Assembly (NCBI GenBank): GCA_021816925.1
Contig: JAKAWQ010000001.1
Span: 1-64,000 of the forward strand
DNA: 64,000 bases
Reading direction: 5' to 3'
DNA from: Pseudomonadota bacterium
GTDB taxonomy: Bacteria; Pseudomonadota; Alphaproteobacteria; Acetobacterales; Acetobacteraceae
Shown here: positions 2,028-47,160 of the stretch, in pieces
Layout: the number at the start of each line of letters is the position of its first letter
Position numbering within the stretch: the stretch's first letter is position 1
The notes under the pieces: model-generated
What the model saw: only the letters and a program-made list of their open reading frames with translations
Databases searched by the model: none
What the model was told of the DNA's origin: nothing
Position numbers and translations under genes: made by a program

Positions 2028-4028
2028 ATGACCAGGATCTTCGCACGCCCCGTTGCCAAGCTGCTGCGCCAGGGCCTGCTCAGTGTTGGCTCCGGCGGCA
2101 CGAGCCTGCCCGGGCGCGTGGCGCTGGCACTCGACCCGGAGTTTCTTGGCCGCGCCCGGAACTACCCAAGCCGGCTCATCGTCACCGGGACGAACGGGAA
2201 AACCTCGACGGTCGCGATGATCGCGGCCCTGCTCCGGCAGGCGGGGAAGAGTGTGGCCACCAATGCGGAAGGCGCCAATCTGCGCCAGGGCCTGGCGACC
2301 ACACTCCTCGAGCCGCCGCGCGATTCGCTGGTGCTGGAGGTGGACGAGCTGACCGTGCCGCACGTTGGCCCGATCGTGGCGCCGCAGGCGATGGTGGTGA
2401 CGGGCCTCTTCCGCGATCAGCTCGACCGTTACGGTGAAGTGGCCAAGGTGCGGGCCGCGCTTGCGGAGGCAGCCGCCGCCATGCCGGAGACCATTCTGGT
2501 CCTGAACGGCGACGATCCGCTGACCGCAAGCCTGGACGCAAAGCGGCGGCTGATCTTCCGTCTCTCGCATCCGCCGCTCGACGTGCCGGCGGACGGCATG
2601 GACTGCCCGCGCTGCGGCGCGCTTCTTTCCTACAGCGCGCGCTATTATGCCCAGCTCGGCGAATATCGCTGCCCCGCCTGCGGTTTCGCCGCACCGGAGG
2701 CGGATATCTGGGCTGTGGCGAGCGCGGAAAGCTTCTCGGTGAACGGCACGCTTCTGCCGCCCCTGCCGCCGGCGCTGCATCCCTACAGCGCGCTCGCCGG
2801 CATTGCCGCGGTCCGCGCCCTCGGGCTCCAAATCTGGCCTGCCGCCTGGCCCCCGCCGGTGGCCGGACGCGGTTCGAGTACGGCGATTGAGGGACGGCAG
2901 GTCACGGTCGTCCTCGGCAAGAACCCGGCCTCGGTCAGCTGGAATCTCGCGCAGCATCCCGGCGATGTTCATCTTTTCCTGGTCAACAACCGCACCGCCG
3001 ACGGGCGCGATATTTCCTGGCTCTGGGACATCAACCTCGGTCCGGTGCGGCGGGCCACGGTGGCGGGCGAGCGCGCGCTCGAGATGCTGATCCGGCTCCG
3101 TTACGAGCCGCGGGTAAGCGAAGCCACAGCCTATCCCGAGCCGGCAGAGGCGTTCGGCGCGGCGCTTGCGGCAACGCCCGAAGGAGGAAAGCTCGTGGTG
3201 GTCGCGACCTACACGGCGCTGCCGACCGCGCTCGGACTGATCCGCCGCCCGCCGGCAGCCGGGCGCCAGGCCGCGCACGGGGCGGGCAAGACGCTGCCCT
3301 CGCGCCCGGGCGTGCGCGCGCGAGGGAAGAGCGCGCGCATCGTTCTTCTGTTCCCGGACCAGCTCGGCACCTATGCGGACGGCGGCAATGCAGTGGTGCT
3401 GCAGCGGCGGCTGGAATGGCGCGGCATCGCCGCGAGCGTGACGCGGATCGGGCCGGGCGATAGCCTGCCCGGCGATGCCGACGTGCTCCTGCTCGGCGGA
3501 GGGGAGGACCGAGGCCAGGTGCTAGCGCTCGAAGGGTTGCGGCGGATGCGGCCCGATCTCGCCGCGATGCTCGGCGATGGCGTTCCCGCGCTCCTCGTGT
3601 GTGGGGGGCTGCAGCTTTACGGGCAATCGCTGCCGCTCGAGGGACACGATGTCGCGGGGCTCGGCCTTCTGCCCTTCGTCACGCGCCGCGGCACGCCGCG
3701 GCTCGTCGGGCGGATCGGCGTTGAGAGTTCGCTCGTCCCCGAACCGCTCATCGGGTTCGAGAACCATGGAGGCCACAGCGCGCTTCTGGAAGGCGGAAGG
3801 CCGCTCGGGCGGGTTCTCTACGGCAACGGCAACGGAGTGGACGGGACGGAGCAGGAGGGAATCGTCCTGAACCGCACGATCGGCACTTACATCCACGGGC
3901 CTGTGCTGGCGCGCAATCCCGCGCTCGCCGAGGTCATGCTCGCGTGGGTGGCGGAGCGGCGCGGGTTCGCCGCGTTCGACCCGCTCGACGATCCGGTCGA
4001 GCGGGAAGCGGCGGCCAACCGCGCCTGA
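2028..4028 (+). CDS. Fused MurT-GatD lipid II amidotransferase-like protein
   Basis: A 666-residue protein joining two enzymes that are separate subunits in Gram-positive bacteria. Residues 1-410 are MurT-like, a Mur ligase fold with the ATP loop GTNGKTST (54-61), a four-cysteine zinc site (C193, C196, C215, C218) and the C-terminal DUF1727 region with the conserved Asp in WLWDINL (D334). A Pro/Arg/Gly-rich linker (about 405-435) leads to a GatD-like class I glutaminase: the nucleophile is C525 in LLVCGGLQLYG and the catalytic His is H623 in TYIHGP. MurT/GatD amidates D-Glu of lipid II to D-isoglutamine, with GatD supplying ammonia. All key residues are present, so activity is likely, but the acceptor in this organism is unknown. 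Start ATG at 2028; upstream in-frame codons are unrelated. Confidence 0.9.
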   Translation: MTRIFARPVAKLLRQGLLSVGSGGTSLPGRVALALDPEFLGRARNYPSRLIVTGTNGKTSTVAMIAALLRQAGKSVATNAEGANLRQGLATTLLEPPRDSLVLEVDELTVPHVGPIVAPQAMVVTGLFRDQLDRYGEVAKVRAALAEAAAAMPETILVLNGDDPLTASLDAKRRLIFRLSHPPLDVPADGMDCPRCGALLSYSARYYAQLGEYRCPACGFAAPEADIWAVASAESFSVNGTLLPPLPPALHPYSALAGIAAVRALGLQIWPAAWPPPVAGRGSSTAIEGRQVTVVLGKNPASVSWNLAQHPGDVHLFLVNNRTADGRDISWLWDINLGPVRRATVAGERALEMLIRLRYEPRVSEATAYPEPAEAFGAALAATPEGGKLVVVATYTALPTALGLIRRPPAAGRQAAHGAGKTLPSRPGVRARGKSARIVLLFPDQLGTYADGGNAVVLQRRLEWRGIAASVTRIGPGDSLPGDADVLLLGGGEDRGQVLALEGLRRMRPDLAAMLGDGVPALLVCGGLQLYGQSLPLEGHDVAGLGLLPFVTRRGTPRLVGRIGVESSLVPEPLIGFENHGGHSALLEGGRPLGRVLYGNGNGVDGTEQEGIVLNRTIGTYIHGPVLARNPALAEVMLAWVAERRGFAAFDPLDDPVEREAAANRA

Positions 4029-4066: not shown

Positions 4067-4639
4067 ATGGTGAGGGAGAAGCGTGTGCAAGCGGGAAGCA
4101 GCATCGCGGAACCGGCAGCAACCGTGGCGCTAACGCCGTCCTGGCAGGACGAGCTCTACGATCTCTTGCGCCAGCATGGCGTGACAGAGTTCGCCTATGT
4201 GCCGGACGCCGGTCATCGCGTGCTGATCGACCGCTCTCTGGCCGATCCGGGGGCGCATTCGGTGGCGCTGACGACGGAAGAAGAAGGCGTTGCGCTGCTC
4301 GCCGGCGCCGACCTCGGCGGCGCGCGCGGCGTTCTGCTGATGCAGAGCAGCGGGGTCGGCAACTGCATCAACATGCTCTCGCTGGTCAAGGGCGGGCGCT
4401 TTCCGTTCCTCACGCTCGTCAGCATGCGTGGCGATTTCGGCGAGGGGAATCCGTGGCAGTTCCCGATGGGCCAGGCCGTGCAGCCGGTGCTGGAGGCGAT
4501 GGGCGTCATCTGCCTCCGCGTCGAGCGGCGCGAGGAGGTGCTGCCGACCGTGGCGGCGGCGCTGACGATGGTCTTCCAATCCGGCTACGCCGTCGCGGTG
4601 CTCCTGACCCAGAAGCTGATTGGGGCCAAGCAATTCTAG
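4067..4639 (+). CDS. Sulfopyruvate/phosphonopyruvate decarboxylase-like, alpha (Pyr-domain) subunit
   Basis: About 185-190 residues forming only the N-terminal pyrimidine-binding domain of a TPP enzyme. The segment ALTTEEEGVALLAGADLGG contains the Glu that activates the TPP aminopyrimidine ring, and VLLMQSSGVGNCINMLS is typical of ComD and of the N-half of phosphonopyruvate decarboxylase. The matching PP-domain subunit lies at 5205-5843, so the enzyme is split in two. Family enzymes decarboxylate sulfopyruvate or phosphonopyruvate to the aldehyde; no coenzyme M or phosphonate genes (no PepM-type mutase) are in view, so the substrate is open. The start may be ATG 4067 or, with better GGGAG spacing, GTG 4085. 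Confidence 0.85.
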   Translation: MVREKRVQAGSSIAEPAATVALTPSWQDELYDLLRQHGVTEFAYVPDAGHRVLIDRSLADPGAHSVALTTEEEGVALLAGADLGGARGVLLMQSSGVGNCINMLSLVKGGRFPFLTLVSMRGDFGEGNPWQFPMGQAVQPVLEAMGVICLRVERREEVLPTVAAALTMVFQSGYAVAVLLTQKLIGAKQF

Positions 4640-5204: not shown

Positions 5205-5843
5205 ATGGAACCGAGAAGCGTAGCGGCATCCGAGGCGCCGCCGTTCCTGCTCGACCGCCGCCAGGCCGTTCCGGCGCTGATCGGCAGGCACGAGGACTTC
5301 CTGATCGTTACGGGTCTTGCGGGCACCGCCAAGGACATCGCCGCTCTGACCGAAGACGGCTCGCACGCCTACACCATGGCAGGTGCGATGGGTGGGGCTG
5401 CTGCAATGGGACTGGGCCTCGCGCTCGCGCAACCCAAGCGCCGCGTGTTGGTGGTGACGGGAGACGGAGAATTGTTGATGAATGTGGGCACGCTCGCCAC
5501 CATCGCCATTCTCAATCCACCCAATCTTTCGATCCTCTGTGTCGATAACGGCCATTACGGCGAAACCGGCAACCAGAAGAGCCACACGGCTCTCGGCGTG
5601 CAGCTCGACCGGATGGCAGCCGGCGCCGGGATAGGGGTGATCCGCACGGTGAACACGGAAGCCGACATCGCCGAGGCGGCACAGACTCTGCGTGCGCACA
5701 ACGCCACCGCCTTTGTTCTGCTCCGCGTCAAGGATGGCCCACCCGCTTCGTTCAGGCGAAACATGTCCGCCGCAGCCTGCCGCGAGCGCTTTCGCGGTGC
5801 TCTGCTCGGGCGTGGCTCAAGCGGGCGACCGCCGCATGGATAG
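5205..5843 (+). CDS. Sulfopyruvate/phosphonopyruvate decarboxylase-like, beta (TPP-binding PP-domain) subunit
   Basis: A 212-residue protein with the C-terminal TPP-binding fold. The diphosphate/Mg motif starts at GDGELLMN and ends about 30 residues later at the Asn in VDNGHYGETG, as in ComE and phosphonopyruvate decarboxylase C-halves. YTMAGAMGGAAAMGLGLALA is the typical preceding helix. It pairs with the Pyr-domain protein at 4067-4639, although a lipoprotein gene and a possible terminator separate them. A small unknown gene follows 6 bp later and is probably co-translated. The last 30 residues are Arg/Ser-rich and poorly conserved. The substrate is unproven. Confidence 0.85.
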   Translation: MEPRSVAASEAPPFLLDRRQAVPALIGRHEDFLIVTGLAGTAKDIAALTEDGSHAYTMAGAMGGAAAMGLGLALAQPKRRVLVVTGDGELLMNVGTLATIAILNPPNLSILCVDNGHYGETGNQKSHTALGVQLDRMAAGAGIGVIRTVNTEADIAEAAQTLRAHNATAFVLLRVKDGPPASFRRNMSAAACRERFRGALLGRGSSGRPPHG

Positions 5844-38559: not shown

Positions 38560-39089
38560 AGCTGCTTCCCAATGTGCCGGCCACCGAGGTTACGATCCAA
38601 GCTGGCTCGGCCAATTTCAAGGAGAAGGCAAAGACCAAGCAAGGCACGATGTTGACGCTGAGTCCGCCGGCACTATCGCCCGAGGCAGTAGATGGCGCTG
38701 CCCTCCTCGATGAATTGTCACGGTTCTTTGCCGAGCACGCCTTCCTGCCCCCTGGCGCAGCCGATGTGCTGGCCGTCTGGGCGACCCAGACTTACTGTTA
38801 TTACTTGTTCCCCCATACACCACGTTTAAGCATCACCTCTCCCGAAAAGGGCTCCGGAAAGACCACGGTCTTAGATCTCCTCGAAAGGATAGTTTGCAAA
38901 CCCATGAGCGTTGTGAACATCACCCCTGCGTCCGTCTTTCGTTCCATCGAGAAGATGAAGCCGACTCTCCTGGTTGATGAAGCCGACACCTTCCTGACCG
39001 GAAAGAGCGAACTGCGTGGCGTCCTCAATGCGGGTCATAAGTTCGGCGGGACATCCCCTGGCATAGCGCGGCGGGGGATATGCACTTAA
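38553..39089 (+). pseudogene. Truncated DUF3631-type P-loop ATPase
   Basis: 178 residues of an ATPase that in intact islands is usually several hundred long. The N-terminal part is normal: LLDELSRFFAEHAFLPPGAA, the P-loop SITSPEKGSGKTTVLDLL, and the Walker B-like TLLVDEADTFL. After LRGVLNAGHKFGG it abruptly becomes TSPGIARRGICT and stops, nine bases into the GajA gene. The sharp change suggests a recombination junction near 39050, where the rest of the gene was replaced by the Gabija module. Start ATG 38553 overlaps the preceding stop; GTG 38535 is an alternative. The fragment may still be translated. Confidence 0.8.
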
Positions 39090-40903
39090 GCCAACTTCGA
39101 CTCTCAAATTTTCGGTCGTTCGCAGAAGAGCTGGTCTTTTTCGAGCGTCGCCTGACGGTGCTTGTCGGAGAGAACAACGGTGGCAAAAGCAATCTTATCG
39201 ATGCCATCCGCCTTATTTCTTCGCCCTTGAGCGGTCGCCGTGAACTCTATTGCGAGCAAACCGACATACGCTTTGGCACTATCTCCCGCTCGTTTACTAT
39301 TCAGGCGACATTTGATGAACTGGCGCCGCCGCAACAGGGACGCCTCATTTCGGCAACGACCGATGACACGTTAAGCACAGCCTGCTTTGGCCTCACCTAC
39401 GACGCCGCCGGCAAACAATCGCACATCCGCCCCAACCTGTGGGCGGGCCGCTTTAAAGCGCCGCCGGAGCCCGGCGCGCATGAAATGATCCGGCATGTCT
39501 ACCTGCCTCCGCTACGCGACGCTAAACACGCCCTCGCATCGGGCAATCCCACGCGCATTCATGCTCTCTTGCACCACTTTCTTGGGGACCGCGATCCCAA
39601 TGAAATTGCCAGGAATCTAGCTCGCACCAGCGACGATCAGATTCTTACGGATGTGGACCTCGCTGTGGCTGGCGGTCTGGATATTCTGACTACCGGCGTC
39701 AGGCGGCAAAACGCCAGCCTGGGATTCAACACGGATGAGAAATTGATCGACATTGCCCGCGACCTGCGGTTCAAGCTCGCCGATCACGGCATCACGCCGG
39801 AAGACCTTCAATATTCCGGACACGGCTTTGCCAATCTGCTTTATATCGCAACGATCGCGGTCGAGCTGGAAAAGACTGACAATGCCGAACTTACAACGTT
39901 CCTTGTCGAAGAACCGGAGGCCCACCTTCATCCCCAGCTACAGGCTGCAGTACTGAATTTTCTGGAAGAGCGCGCCGAGCAGTCGCTCAACCCGAAGAAG
40001 GACCAAAACGCTCCGGCGGGTCATTTACAGGTCATCGTTGCCACACATTCACCGAATCTGTCCGCCTGGGTCCCAAGCAAGAACCTGGTGTTCGTGCGCT
40101 CCGTAGCGCCTGCGAGCGACGCAATTGATGACACCGGCCAAGAGGGTAGCGGGCAATCCGAATATCCAGAAGCACCGCAGGCCACGACGGCGCCTCGTGC
40201 GGAATCTCGCTGCATTCCCCTTTCCAGGCTTGATTTGAGTGATCCGGAACGACGGAAGATCGACCGTTACCTCGATGTGACGAAATCGGCGCTGCTGTTC
40301 GGCGGGCGCGTCCTTCTGGTCGAAGGCATCGCCGAGGCGCTGTTACTGCCGGTTATTGCCAAACACCACGTCCTAAAAGACAAACCAGCGGCCTTCCGAA
40401 TATTTCGGTCAGCCGTCTTCGTGCCGATAGACGGGGTGGATTTCACACCGTATGCGAAAGCCCTTTTATCGCCATTCAATAATGTTCGTATTGCCGACCG
40501 CCTTGTGATCATTACGGACGGCGACAAGCATACCGTCGAAGCTGGTAAACCGCTTCCGGGCGTCAATCGCAAAACTGCCCTGGACACGCTGGCTGCGGAC
40601 AGGAATGCCAGCGACGTCCTGGATGTCTTCGTAAATACCTACTCGCTGGAAACCGAACTCGTGGCCGCCGGCAACGCGGCATGTCTCAAGGCCGTGTATC
40701 TAATTTTGCATCCGCAGTCGGAAGATAAGTGGGATGAAGCGGTGGCGAAGTCTGGTGACGATCGTGCCCAGGCCATACAGGACCTTTTCAAAACGACGCC
40801 TAAAGGAGACTTTGCGCAGCTTCTCGCCGAGAAGGTAGCGGTCAGCCAGGCCTTCATTGTGCCGGACTACATCCGGCAGGCCATCGAGGCGCTTGTGAAA
40901 TGA
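39080..40903 (+). CDS. gajA: Gabija protein GajA (OLD-family ATPase/TOPRIM nuclease)
   Basis: A 607-residue class 2 OLD protein. Walker A is GENNGGKS (30-37), the ABC signature region is QYSGHGFANLLYIA (245-258), Walker B is FLVEEPEAHLHP (274-285), and the H-loop is VIVATHSPNL. The TOPRIM nuclease domain starts near 405 with VLLVEGIAEALLLPV (E415) and has the acidic ITDGDK (D480, D482). In Gabija systems GajA nicks DNA and is held inactive by normal nucleotide levels until phage depletes them. The following helicase gene overlaps by 4 bp (ATGA), which matches known gajAB operons. Confidence 0.9.
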   Translation: MHLSQLRLSNFRSFAEELVFFERRLTVLVGENNGGKSNLIDAIRLISSPLSGRRELYCEQTDIRFGTISRSFTIQATFDELAPPQQGRLISATTDDTLSTACFGLTYDAAGKQSHIRPNLWAGRFKAPPEPGAHEMIRHVYLPPLRDAKHALASGNPTRIHALLHHFLGDRDPNEIARNLARTSDDQILTDVDLAVAGGLDILTTGVRRQNASLGFNTDEKLIDIARDLRFKLADHGITPEDLQYSGHGFANLLYIATIAVELEKTDNAELTTFLVEEPEAHLHPQLQAAVLNFLEERAEQSLNPKKDQNAPAGHLQVIVATHSPNLSAWVPSKNLVFVRSVAPASDAIDDTGQEGSGQSEYPEAPQATTAPRAESRCIPLSRLDLSDPERRKIDRYLDVTKSALLFGGRVLLVEGIAEALLLPVIAKHHVLKDKPAAFRIFRSAVFVPIDGVDFTPYAKALLSPFNNVRIADRLVIITDGDKHTVEAGKPLPGVNRKTALDTLAADRNASDVLDVFVNTYSLETELVAAGNAACLKAVYLILHPQSEDKWDEAVAKSGDDRAQAIQDLFKTTPKGDFAQLLAEKVAVSQAFIVPDYIRQAIEALVK

Positions 40904-42648
40904 ATCCGCAAGCCTTCCAGCCCACGCCCGAACAGCAAGCCGTCATCGGTCATGAGGGCTCCGCATTTGTGACGGCATGCCCCGGCGCCGGCAAGACGCG
41001 GGTTATGACCGAACGCGCGCGGCGCCTGTTCTCTGACATGCCGGCTGGCAGGGGCGTGGCTTTCCTGTCATTTACCCAGGGCGCCATCTTCGAGCTGGAA
41101 ACCCGGCTCCAGGAAGAACGGATTCTACCTTCACCCGTTTTCCCGAGCTTTATCGGAACCTTTGACAGCTTCGTGTGGCAATTCCTTGTCGCGCCCTTTG
41201 GCGTCAAGGATTGCGATGCCCGGCCGCGATTGATCGCCGATCTCGCGGACCTTGCCGTAACGCCGTTTCGTGGCGCTCACCCCTTGCCGCTATCCTGTTT
41301 TTGCCCTGTCACCGGAAACATCTTTGAGCAGGCCGCGAAAGTCCGGGGTTTCGATGTTTCTCAAAAGCCCGCCCATCTGGTCCAGGCTTATGTAACGGCG
41401 GCGGCGGCCATCCGCGCCAGGTTGCGTGAACGCGGCCAACTGGGTTTTGACGAGGCGCGCGGCGTGGCCCTCGAACGGCTCAAAGACGCTGGAGCCGCAC
41501 CTCGTATCGCGGCGGCCCTGGTGGGCCGGTTCCGCGAAGTGATTGTCGATGAAGCGCAGGACTGCAATCCGGACGATCTGCATGTCATTTCATGGCTGCG
41601 GGATTCGGGTCTGCCGGTGAAGGTCGTATGCGATCCTCACCAATCGATTTATGAATTTCGCGGCGGCGTTACAGATCAGCTTTTTACCTTTGCGGAGACC
41701 TTCGGCGAAGGCAACCGCAAAACGTTGACCGGAAACTTTCGGTCCGCGCCCAATGTCTGCAAATCCATCGCCCAGCTCCGCCCGCCCGCATCGCGTATGG
41801 CGCCGGACGAACCGCTCGGTCCGTACAAAGACGATGCCACGCCGATACGCATACTGTCCTATCCCGGCACCGCCGTTCCGGCATCGATCGGCGCCGCTTT
41901 CTGTGCCTATGTGAAGGAAGCAGACATCGATCCGGCCTTGTCACCGCTCATTGCCGCGACCAGAGCGAGCGGCGCCGCCGCTGCTGGACAGCCCCGTCCG
42001 AGCAACAGGCGTGACCGGGCCGTGCGCCTTGCAGAGGCCGTGACAGACTTTTATTTTGCTGCCGGCTTCAATGATATGAAGTCGGCGATCGATCAGGTCC
42101 ATCAAATCCTGCTGGAGCTGGAGGGGCGTCTGGGCGATCTCTCTTATCGGCAATATCTCGCGGATAACGAGATCGAGCAGGCAAACTGGCGTCCTCACGT
42201 TCTGTTTCTTTTGCGAGCGTTGCGCTTCGATCCGTCGAAGCACGCGGATGCCAAGGCCTGGCACGCTGCCGCCAAAGACCTGTTGGCCCAACATCTCACA
42301 TTGGGGGACGGGCCTTCACTTTCGCAAAGGCTCAAATGGAACGACGCCGTTGCCGCCGCACTTGCTGCGGTGCCTGCGGCGACAGCGATGCCCCGCACGA
42401 TACATGCCGTCAAAGGCATGGAGTTCCCGGCCGTCTGTGTCGTGACCACGGCTTCGACTCTCAAAAGCATTCTCGACTACCTGGAAACAGGGGAACCCGC
42501 AGACAAGGCCGAAGATGCCCGTAAACTTTATGTCGCGTCGTCACGCGCGGAAAAATTGCTTGTGATCGCCGCGCCAAAAAGTCAGGCCGACCGGCTGGCA
42601 ACATATCTGCGCGGTCAGGGCGCGGCGGTGGAAGTAAAGGAGATTTAG
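40900..42648 (+). CDS. gajB: Gabija protein GajB (UvrD/PcrA-like helicase)
   Basis: A 582-residue superfamily 1 helicase. Motif I is TACPGAGKT (25-33), motif II is VDEAQDC (216-222), motif III KVVCDPHQSIYEFRGG, motif IV NFRSAPNVC, a motif V-like AMPRTIHAVKGMEFPAVCV, and motif VI LYVASSRAEKLLVIA. It is shorter than UvrD and similar to GajB, which joins GajA in a large complex and responds to DNA ends. Coupled to gajA through ATGA. No other defence gene is fused or adjoining except the secreted protein downstream. Confidence 0.9.
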   Translation: MNPQAFQPTPEQQAVIGHEGSAFVTACPGAGKTRVMTERARRLFSDMPAGRGVAFLSFTQGAIFELETRLQEERILPSPVFPSFIGTFDSFVWQFLVAPFGVKDCDARPRLIADLADLAVTPFRGAHPLPLSCFCPVTGNIFEQAAKVRGFDVSQKPAHLVQAYVTAAAAIRARLRERGQLGFDEARGVALERLKDAGAAPRIAAALVGRFREVIVDEAQDCNPDDLHVISWLRDSGLPVKVVCDPHQSIYEFRGGVTDQLFTFAETFGEGNRKTLTGNFRSAPNVCKSIAQLRPPASRMAPDEPLGPYKDDATPIRILSYPGTAVPASIGAAFCAYVKEADIDPALSPLIAATRASGAAAAGQPRPSNRRDRAVRLAEAVTDFYFAAGFNDMKSAIDQVHQILLELEGRLGDLSYRQYLADNEIEQANWRPHVLFLLRALRFDPSKHADAKAWHAAAKDLLAQHLTLGDGPSLSQRLKWNDAVAAALAAVPAATAMPRTIHAVKGMEFPAVCVVTTASTLKSILDYLETGEPADKAEDARKLYVASSRAEKLLVIAAPKSQADRLATYLRGQGAAVEVKEI

Positions 42649-47159: not shown

Positions 47160-47160
47160 T

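Follow-up and report, generated by a model that had tools for sequence, protein, structure and literature searches.

The lipid II isoglutaminyl synthase MurT/GatD has been solved as two chains from Staphylococcus aureus (6GS2/6H5E), Streptococcus pneumoniae (6FQB) and Streptococcus pyogenes (9SQ9/9SQJ), and a Cys4 zinc ribbon is usual, though not universal, in its family. In Gram-positive bacteria, cross-linking is supported by amidation of D-glutamate (D-Glu) (PMC6085368), and D-isoglutamine impairs NOD1 recognition of D-Glu-meso-diaminopimelic acid (mDAP) (PMC3267633). Gram-negative carriers of murT/gatD are described as rare (Morlot 2018, PMC6085368), transfer of the genes to archaea has been reported (PMC11915815), and three fused MurT-GatD open reading frames were noted in Actinobacteria (Figueiredo 2012, PMC3267633, Fig. 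S1 legend). Here we analyze a fused murT-gatD gene in a 64,000-nucleotide stretch of DNA (the window) on contig JAKAWQ010000001.1 of an alphaproteobacterium of the Acetobacteraceae (GCA_021816925.1). Its product, P0001, has in common with the solved enzymes the domain order, P-loop and folds, the Mg and acceptor residues, the zinc ribbon and a putative split catalytic triad. It differs from the solved chains, to which it is 25-35% identical, in being one chain rather than two, in the replacement of three adenine-pocket Asn residues, and in its alphaproteobacterial host. The Mur ligases MurC-F and the pseudomurein ligases pMurC/E also have the Mur middle and C-terminal folds and the P-loop, but they lack an amidotransferase part, and Asn is usual in Mur-ligase-like loci at column 126 (P0001 numbering).

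The new observation is that five alphaproteobacterial fused proteins form one long-branched clade in which all three adenine-pocket Asn are replaced; the rebuilt pocket is the greater surprise and the fusion the lesser. We favor, with fair confidence, the reading that P0001 is a one-chain, glutamine-hydrolyzing amidotransferase of the MurT/GatD kind, whose acceptor is most likely the D-Glu of lipid II and whose rebuilt nucleoside pocket possibly serves a nucleotide other than ATP. The features of the gene are as follows.

2028..4028, plus strand: fused murT-gatD gene, 666 amino acids and a stop (translation, Pfam, AlphaFold)
2028..3248, plus strand: MurT part, residues 1-407, with N-terminal segment, Mur middle domain, zinc ribbon and MurT_C (solved relatives, Pfam, structure comparison)
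2181..2207, plus strand: P-loop VTGTNGKTS, residues 52-60, with GTNGKT at 54-59 (conserved columns, numbering against solved MurT)
2403..2405, plus strand: Gly126, replacing an Asn assigned to adenine, S. pneumoniae N132 in Morlot 2018 (conserved column, numbering)
2604..2681, plus strand: Cys4 zinc ribbon, Cys193/196/215/218 (conserved columns, numbering against solved MurT)
2778..2789, plus strand: His251 and Ser254, replacing two adenine-pocket Asn, S. pneumoniae N270/N273 and S. aureus N264/N267 (conserved columns, numbering)
3009..3011, plus strand: Asp328, equivalent to S. aureus MurT D349 and putatively the third residue of a shared catalytic triad (numbering against solved MurT)
3249..3326, plus strand: linker, residues ~408-433, ends set by eye (ratio of nonsynonymous to synonymous substitution rates, AlphaFold)
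3327..4025, plus strand: GatD part, residues 434-666, GATase_3 and C-terminal helices (solved relatives, Pfam, structure comparison)
3600..3602, plus strand: Cys525, the GatD nucleophile (Cys in 65/65 other rows)
3894..3896, plus strand: His623, the GatD catalytic His (His in 64/64 other rows with a letter there)

Translation of 2028-4028 on the plus strand gave 666 residues with a single terminal stop, in which Pfam recognized Mur_ligase_M (52-171), MurT_C (PF08353; 296-398) and GATase_3 (437-630), each above its gathering score. The best solved relatives were MurT chains (E 6.5e-43) and GatD chains (2.8e-38), including those of S. pneumoniae and S. aureus. An initial annotation had read here one 666-residue frame with the MurT P-loop, Cys4 site and Asp and the GatD Cys and His, joined by a linker, and translation, Pfam and conserved columns all agree with it. 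The open frame extends upstream to 1536; since two congeners begin with MTK at the position equivalent to 2028, this is the likely start, and no clear ribosome-binding site was seen before it.

The fusion is intact in two congeners (P0002 and P0003, 80% and 75% identity) and, as one frame, in two further genera of the family (L148 and L149, 49% identity to P0001), a recurrence that excludes a sequencing error. Around 3250-3330, where two separate genes might have emerged, the frame is open in P0001 and in all four of these relatives; every one of the five complete alphaproteobacterial copies is a single frame and not two operon-encoded subunits. Within the genus, four of five genomes carry the fused gene. 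The copy in G001 falls on two contigs that end within it, C185 (residues 1-329) and C118 (405-666), and G002, which is 77% complete, gave just a weak Mur-ligase-like match. The linker varies in sequence and is nearly constant in length across the five proteins. Among three congeners, the ratio of nonsynonymous to synonymous substitution rates (dN/dS) was 0.13-0.21 for MurT, 0.18-0.25 for GatD and 0.45-0.88 for the linker, the pattern of two domains under purifying selection on a loosely constrained tether.

Modeled by AlphaFold as one chain from a 55-row alignment, whose MurT rows (bar two read-through rows) fill 20-26% of the GatD columns, a caveat for the model, P0001 reached a predicted local distance difference test (pLDDT) score of 92.3 and a predicted template modeling (pTM) score of 0.90. 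Structure prediction of the linker, one of the checks proposed with the annotation, placed the lowest block (pLDDT 62) at linker residues 411-420 within this confident model; the next lowest (70), residues 131-140, aligns with the interface loop of canonical MurT. In structure comparison, the GatD part superposed on GatD chains with Z 30-33 and a root-mean-square deviation (rmsd) of 1.8-2.1 over 229-238 residues. The MurT part matched S. aureus MurT 7q8e_A with Z 25.8 and rmsd 7.9 over 363 residues, a deviation that we read in the model as two domains probably turned against each other. The first 22 Foldseek matches were all MurT or GatD chains.

That the host is an alphaproteobacterium, as had been supposed, is supported by rpoD- and pnp-like genes of the window, whose best matches in a plasmid collection are from Alphaproteobacteria. 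Contamination is unlikely, all the more because other genomes of the genus carry the gene beside some of the same neighbors. A dihydropyrimidinase-like protein of the window had its best plasmid-collection match on an Arthrobacter plasmid (46.8%).

Conservation was assessed over 68 rows with both domains (three of them alphaproteobacterial), L148, L149 and two Gram-positive MurT fragments, leaving out 14 of 82 MurT rows, 3 of 71 GatD rows and six duplicate loci; the set includes near-identical rows (L115-L117 with L121, and L118-L120). MurT numbering was verified against S. aureus and S. pneumoniae on residues named in PMC6085368 and PMC6113224, and those verified match in kind, whereas the GatD triad residues were assigned by conserved column rather than by numbering against a solved chain. 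All five alphaproteobacterial proteins retain K58, T59, N84, E104, D106, E107, D130, D133, R134, E137 and the four Cys, together with R281, K298-N299-P300, D325 and D328, and the N-terminal G24-x3-P28-G29 stretch is likewise unchanged. P0001 thereby has the features of the broad family: the P-loop K58/T59, the Mg-binding Glu E104, the acceptor Asn N84 and the acidic pair D106/E107. Its triad is C525, H623 and D328 (compare S. aureus C94, H189 and D349). Mutating residues among those kept abolishes or severely reduces the activity of S. pneumoniae or S. aureus MurT/GatD (PMC6085368; PMC6113224).

The adenine pocket is a different matter. In S. pneumoniae MurT it is lined by N132, N270 and N273 (Morlot 2018, PMC6085368), and Asn stands at the corresponding columns 126, 251 and 254 in 66, 57 and 65 of the 67 other MurT rows. 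All five alphaproteobacterial proteins have G126, H251 and S254 instead. Forty-five columns reach 90% conservation or more across the 67 other rows, and the common residue is absent from the clade at three of them, N126, G248 and N254, the last two in the same loop. At 80% conservation (70 columns) the clade lacks the common residue at nine, with a uniform replacement at five (S60, G126, H251, S254 and S302). The probability of finding all three adenine columns among the nine is 0.0015 by a simple hypergeometric calculation, computed after the pattern had been seen. Among Mur-ligase-like loci, 39 of 49 could be aligned at column 126; 28 have Asn there, eight have Asn one column earlier, before a gap, and three have Met, Ser or Gly.

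The triple loss is not unique to the clade. L039, from a Chloroflexi bacterium, is the only one of the 67 other rows in which all three Asn are missing; it has Ser at column 302, and at the three adenine columns it carries D, I and D, unlike the alphaproteobacterial clade. Because of L039, it is probable that the three Asn were lost on more than one occasion. L069 lacks two of the three Asn (H, D). The MurT of L039 (5935-7287) is encoded apart from GatD.

So, in P0001, the triphosphate end of the site is intact and the base end rebuilt. A changed nucleotide preference would be the simplest reading of the rebuilt pocket, and looser ATP binding would be the other. In a search of the open-licence literature on nucleotide specificity, the only MurT papers among those listed to address it were the two structure papers (PMC6085368, PMC6113224), and the terms GTP, UTP and CTP are absent from PMC8210147. 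The open-licence literature searched held no report of an alphaproteobacterial MurT-GatD fusion or of the replaced Asn.

The fusion is not unprecedented, given the three actinobacterial frames (PMC3267633) and at least six further fused proteins (L137-L142) in the samples of the phyla of a Chloroflexi bacterium (one) and a Thermoleophilaceae bacterium (five). These six have the same MurT-linker-GatD order in one frame as P0001, with 43-65 residues between two fixed points against 38 in P0001; unlike P0001, they keep Asn at 126 and 254 (L137 is not among the listed exceptions) and fall in two other places in the tree. No frame matching both domains occurred among the 80 named loci listed.

In its own family the fused gene is rare and patchy, with a match in 6 of 299 genomes and 3 of 102 genera. 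A class sample gave PF08353 in 2 of 385 genomes, namely the own genome and one match under the cut-off (G067, 20.8 bits), which we attribute to chance, since nothing in its locus L032 matches P0001 below E 0.38. The phylum sample gave 1 of 398, again the own genome; the class and phylum samples share genomes and contain few members of the family. Matches at E 1e-30 or better occurred in 138 of 221 genomes from the phylum of the Chloroflexi bacterium and in 112 of 256 from that of the Thermoleophilaceae bacterium. In four Cyanobacterial, Dehalococcoidia and Gastranaerophilales genomes (G788, G789, G792 and G793), murT and gatD matches lie on different contigs. In Crocosphaera watsonii, a MurT-like frame (L064, 5944-12126) is open for 2061 amino acids, in which Pfam (E 1e-5) recognized only Mur_ligase_M and a MurT_C match ending at position 68 of 110; the other ~1670 residues gave no match, and the GatD match is on another contig.

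A phylogeny had been proposed to decide between a clade and a transfer. A tree of 65 concatenated MurT-GatD rows, which omits five near-identical rows, groups the five alphaproteobacterial proteins together in one clade (100/100). With midpoint rooting, its sister clade comprises Propionibacteriaceae, Frankiales, Amycolatopsis and Micromonosporaceae (98/88 for the pair), and the enclosing group also includes L134/L135 (99/97). The GatD-only tree agrees (94), and the MurT-only tree places the clade beside L134/L135 (79). The gene was probably acquired from outside Pseudomonadota, nearest to the actinobacterial clade in these trees; we name the donor no more closely because many rows deviate from the mean amino-acid make-up. 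The trees do not settle whether the family inherited the gene vertically from one source: MurT-GatD pairs G1272 with G1332, and in a Pnp tree G1272 stands weakly beside the own genus (93/72) and G1332 has no firm place.

A single clade of all fused rows was rejected (p-AU 1.3e-9) in an approximately unbiased (AU) test on a 33-row subset, run with LG+G4 and a quick search, in which the long branches share the pull of the model. Because of this rejection, and because the fused and separate states need four changes on the tree, the fusion arose at least three times or was gained and lost. One fused row of the Chloroflexi-phylum sample, L137 (G857 C12), falls inside an actinobacterial clade, either by transfer or from a wrongly binned contig.

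The neighbors of the fused gene differ between genera. Two frames follow it in the window:

4067..4639, plus strand: sulfopyruvate-decarboxylase-alpha-like protein, below the curated cut-off (NCBIfam)
5205..5843, plus strand: sulfopyruvate-decarboxylase-beta-like thiamine pyrophosphate (TPP) enzyme, below the curated cut-off (NCBIfam, Pfam)

This TPP decarboxylase-like pair adjoins the fused gene in G000, G001 and G003 and lies ~2.8 kb off in G004, and a 3-oxo-tetronate-4-phosphate decarboxylase, above its NCBIfam cut-off, is also near the gene in the genus. A functional link to the pair was dropped, since the stretches from the two other genera gave no match to either of its frames. There the fused gene has as nearest neighbors a DctM transporter and an AMP-binding enzyme in one case, and an aldehyde dehydrogenase with a nitroreductase-family protein in the other. 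In three congeners an amidohydrolase frame lies directly 5' of the fused gene (L003, L004 and L005; Pfam Amidohydro_2 in L151), and it had no match among the frames of the window.

In the mechanism that we infer, from activity and acceptor to nucleotide and ammonia path, the GatD half would free ammonia from glutamine with Cys525 and His623, assisted by Asp328 from the MurT half. The MurT half would activate a carboxylate with a nucleoside triphosphate through its Mur-ligase P-loop and Mg sites, and ammonia would cross the domain interface to form the amide. The most likely acceptor would be the alpha-carboxyl of D-Glu in lipid II, yielding iso-D-glutamine, and the fusion would maintain a 1:1 ratio and the interface. 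Because the nucleoside pocket is rebuilt, nucleotide choice or affinity is probably unlike that of the canonical ATP-dependent MurT. In a bolder version, peptidoglycan with D-isoglutamine would be made in a Gram-negative clade by a one-chain MurT-GatD that no longer recognizes adenine and uses another nucleoside triphosphate, for example GTP. This version is tentative and, in our estimate, rather doubtful; we know of no other Mur-fold ligase that has made such a change.

Several results weigh against the favored reading. P0001 stays below the NCBIfam cut-offs for lipid II isoglutaminyl synthase, with best scores of 162.7 of 800 bits for MurT (NF045635; NF052464, 146.4/800) and 143.5 of 450 for GatD (NF052463; NF045636, 112.4/400). 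Since it has the broad-family features and misses these equivalog cut-offs, we file it as a MurT/GatD-type amidotransferase of putative, probable lipid II specificity. No wall enzyme was recognized by Pfam among the 27 flanking proteins scanned in three genera (four of the 27 had no match at all), so that the gene context neither supports nor excludes a wall role. The patchy distribution in the family, the clade's long stem (0.82 substitutions per site) and the replacement of the three Asn in P0001 count on the same side, as does the report that changing S. aureus N267, here S254 and the one of the three tested in that species, to a bulky Tyr inactivates the enzyme (PMC6113224). A wall role, as initially annotated, is retained as the most likely one for this enzyme of intact chemistry.

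The absence of wall enzymes from flanks that differ between genera, the TPP decarboxylase-like pair in the own genus, the long stem and the patchy distribution would all suit an enzyme of the same chemistry acting on another acceptor, such as a cofactor, a gamma-glutamyl compound or another metabolite. Yet Asn84, D106/E107 and the N-terminal and DG-x-D-x-SW motifs are unchanged, and no carboxylate requiring amidation is known to us to be connected with the decarboxylase pair; another acceptor is possible but on the unlikely side. A protein that has decayed or been repurposed and has given up nucleotide use, whether a pseudoenzyme or a glutaminase only, would explain why the three Asn are gone, along with G248 from the same loop. 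This we consider improbable, given dN/dS of 0.13-0.25 in both domains, the retention of the named triphosphate and Mg residues, and the identity of S60, G126, H251, S254 and S302 in all five proteins although two genera are only 49% identical to P0001.

Characterized MurT/GatD enzymes act on D-Glu, which speaks against P0001 being the mDAP-amidating enzyme sought in acetic acid bacteria, and 293 of the 299 sampled family genomes have no match, so that a trait of the whole family can hardly be explained by the gene. The amidated peptidoglycan of these bacteria, to which the annotation had linked the gene, carries its amide on the L-center of mDAP, and identification of the genes responsible is urged in a paper of 2024 (PMC10864386); a muropeptide search allowing Gln at position 2 describes amidated mDAP and, in the text accessible, no Gln there (PMC10727944). 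The link is not supported, and we rate this identity as very unlikely. An assembly, frameshift or binning artefact might be suspected in draft genomes of ~100-650 contigs, with the gene 2 kb from the end of its 282-kb contig, but it is refuted by relatives with the same fusion in three genera, and neighbors common to the genus, purifying selection and the rpoD- and pnp-like genes of the window leave it a negligible chance.

A self-contained alphaproteobacterial enzyme acting on D-Glu would test the role of the D-Glu amide in a Gram-negative-type wall, and a natural protein without the adenine-pocket Asn offers a direct handle on nucleotide choice by Mur-fold ligases. A one-chain enzyme may also be easier than a two-subunit complex to obtain in substrate-bound structures.

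Elsewhere in the window, positions 39080-42648 (plus strand) hold a Gabija anti-phage pair, with GajA at 39080-40903 (972.7 bits, full profile) and GajB at 40900-42648 (799 bits). The stretch has a G+C content of 0.56-0.60 against ~0.67, and a tRNA-Thr gene at 47160 is ~4.5 kb away.
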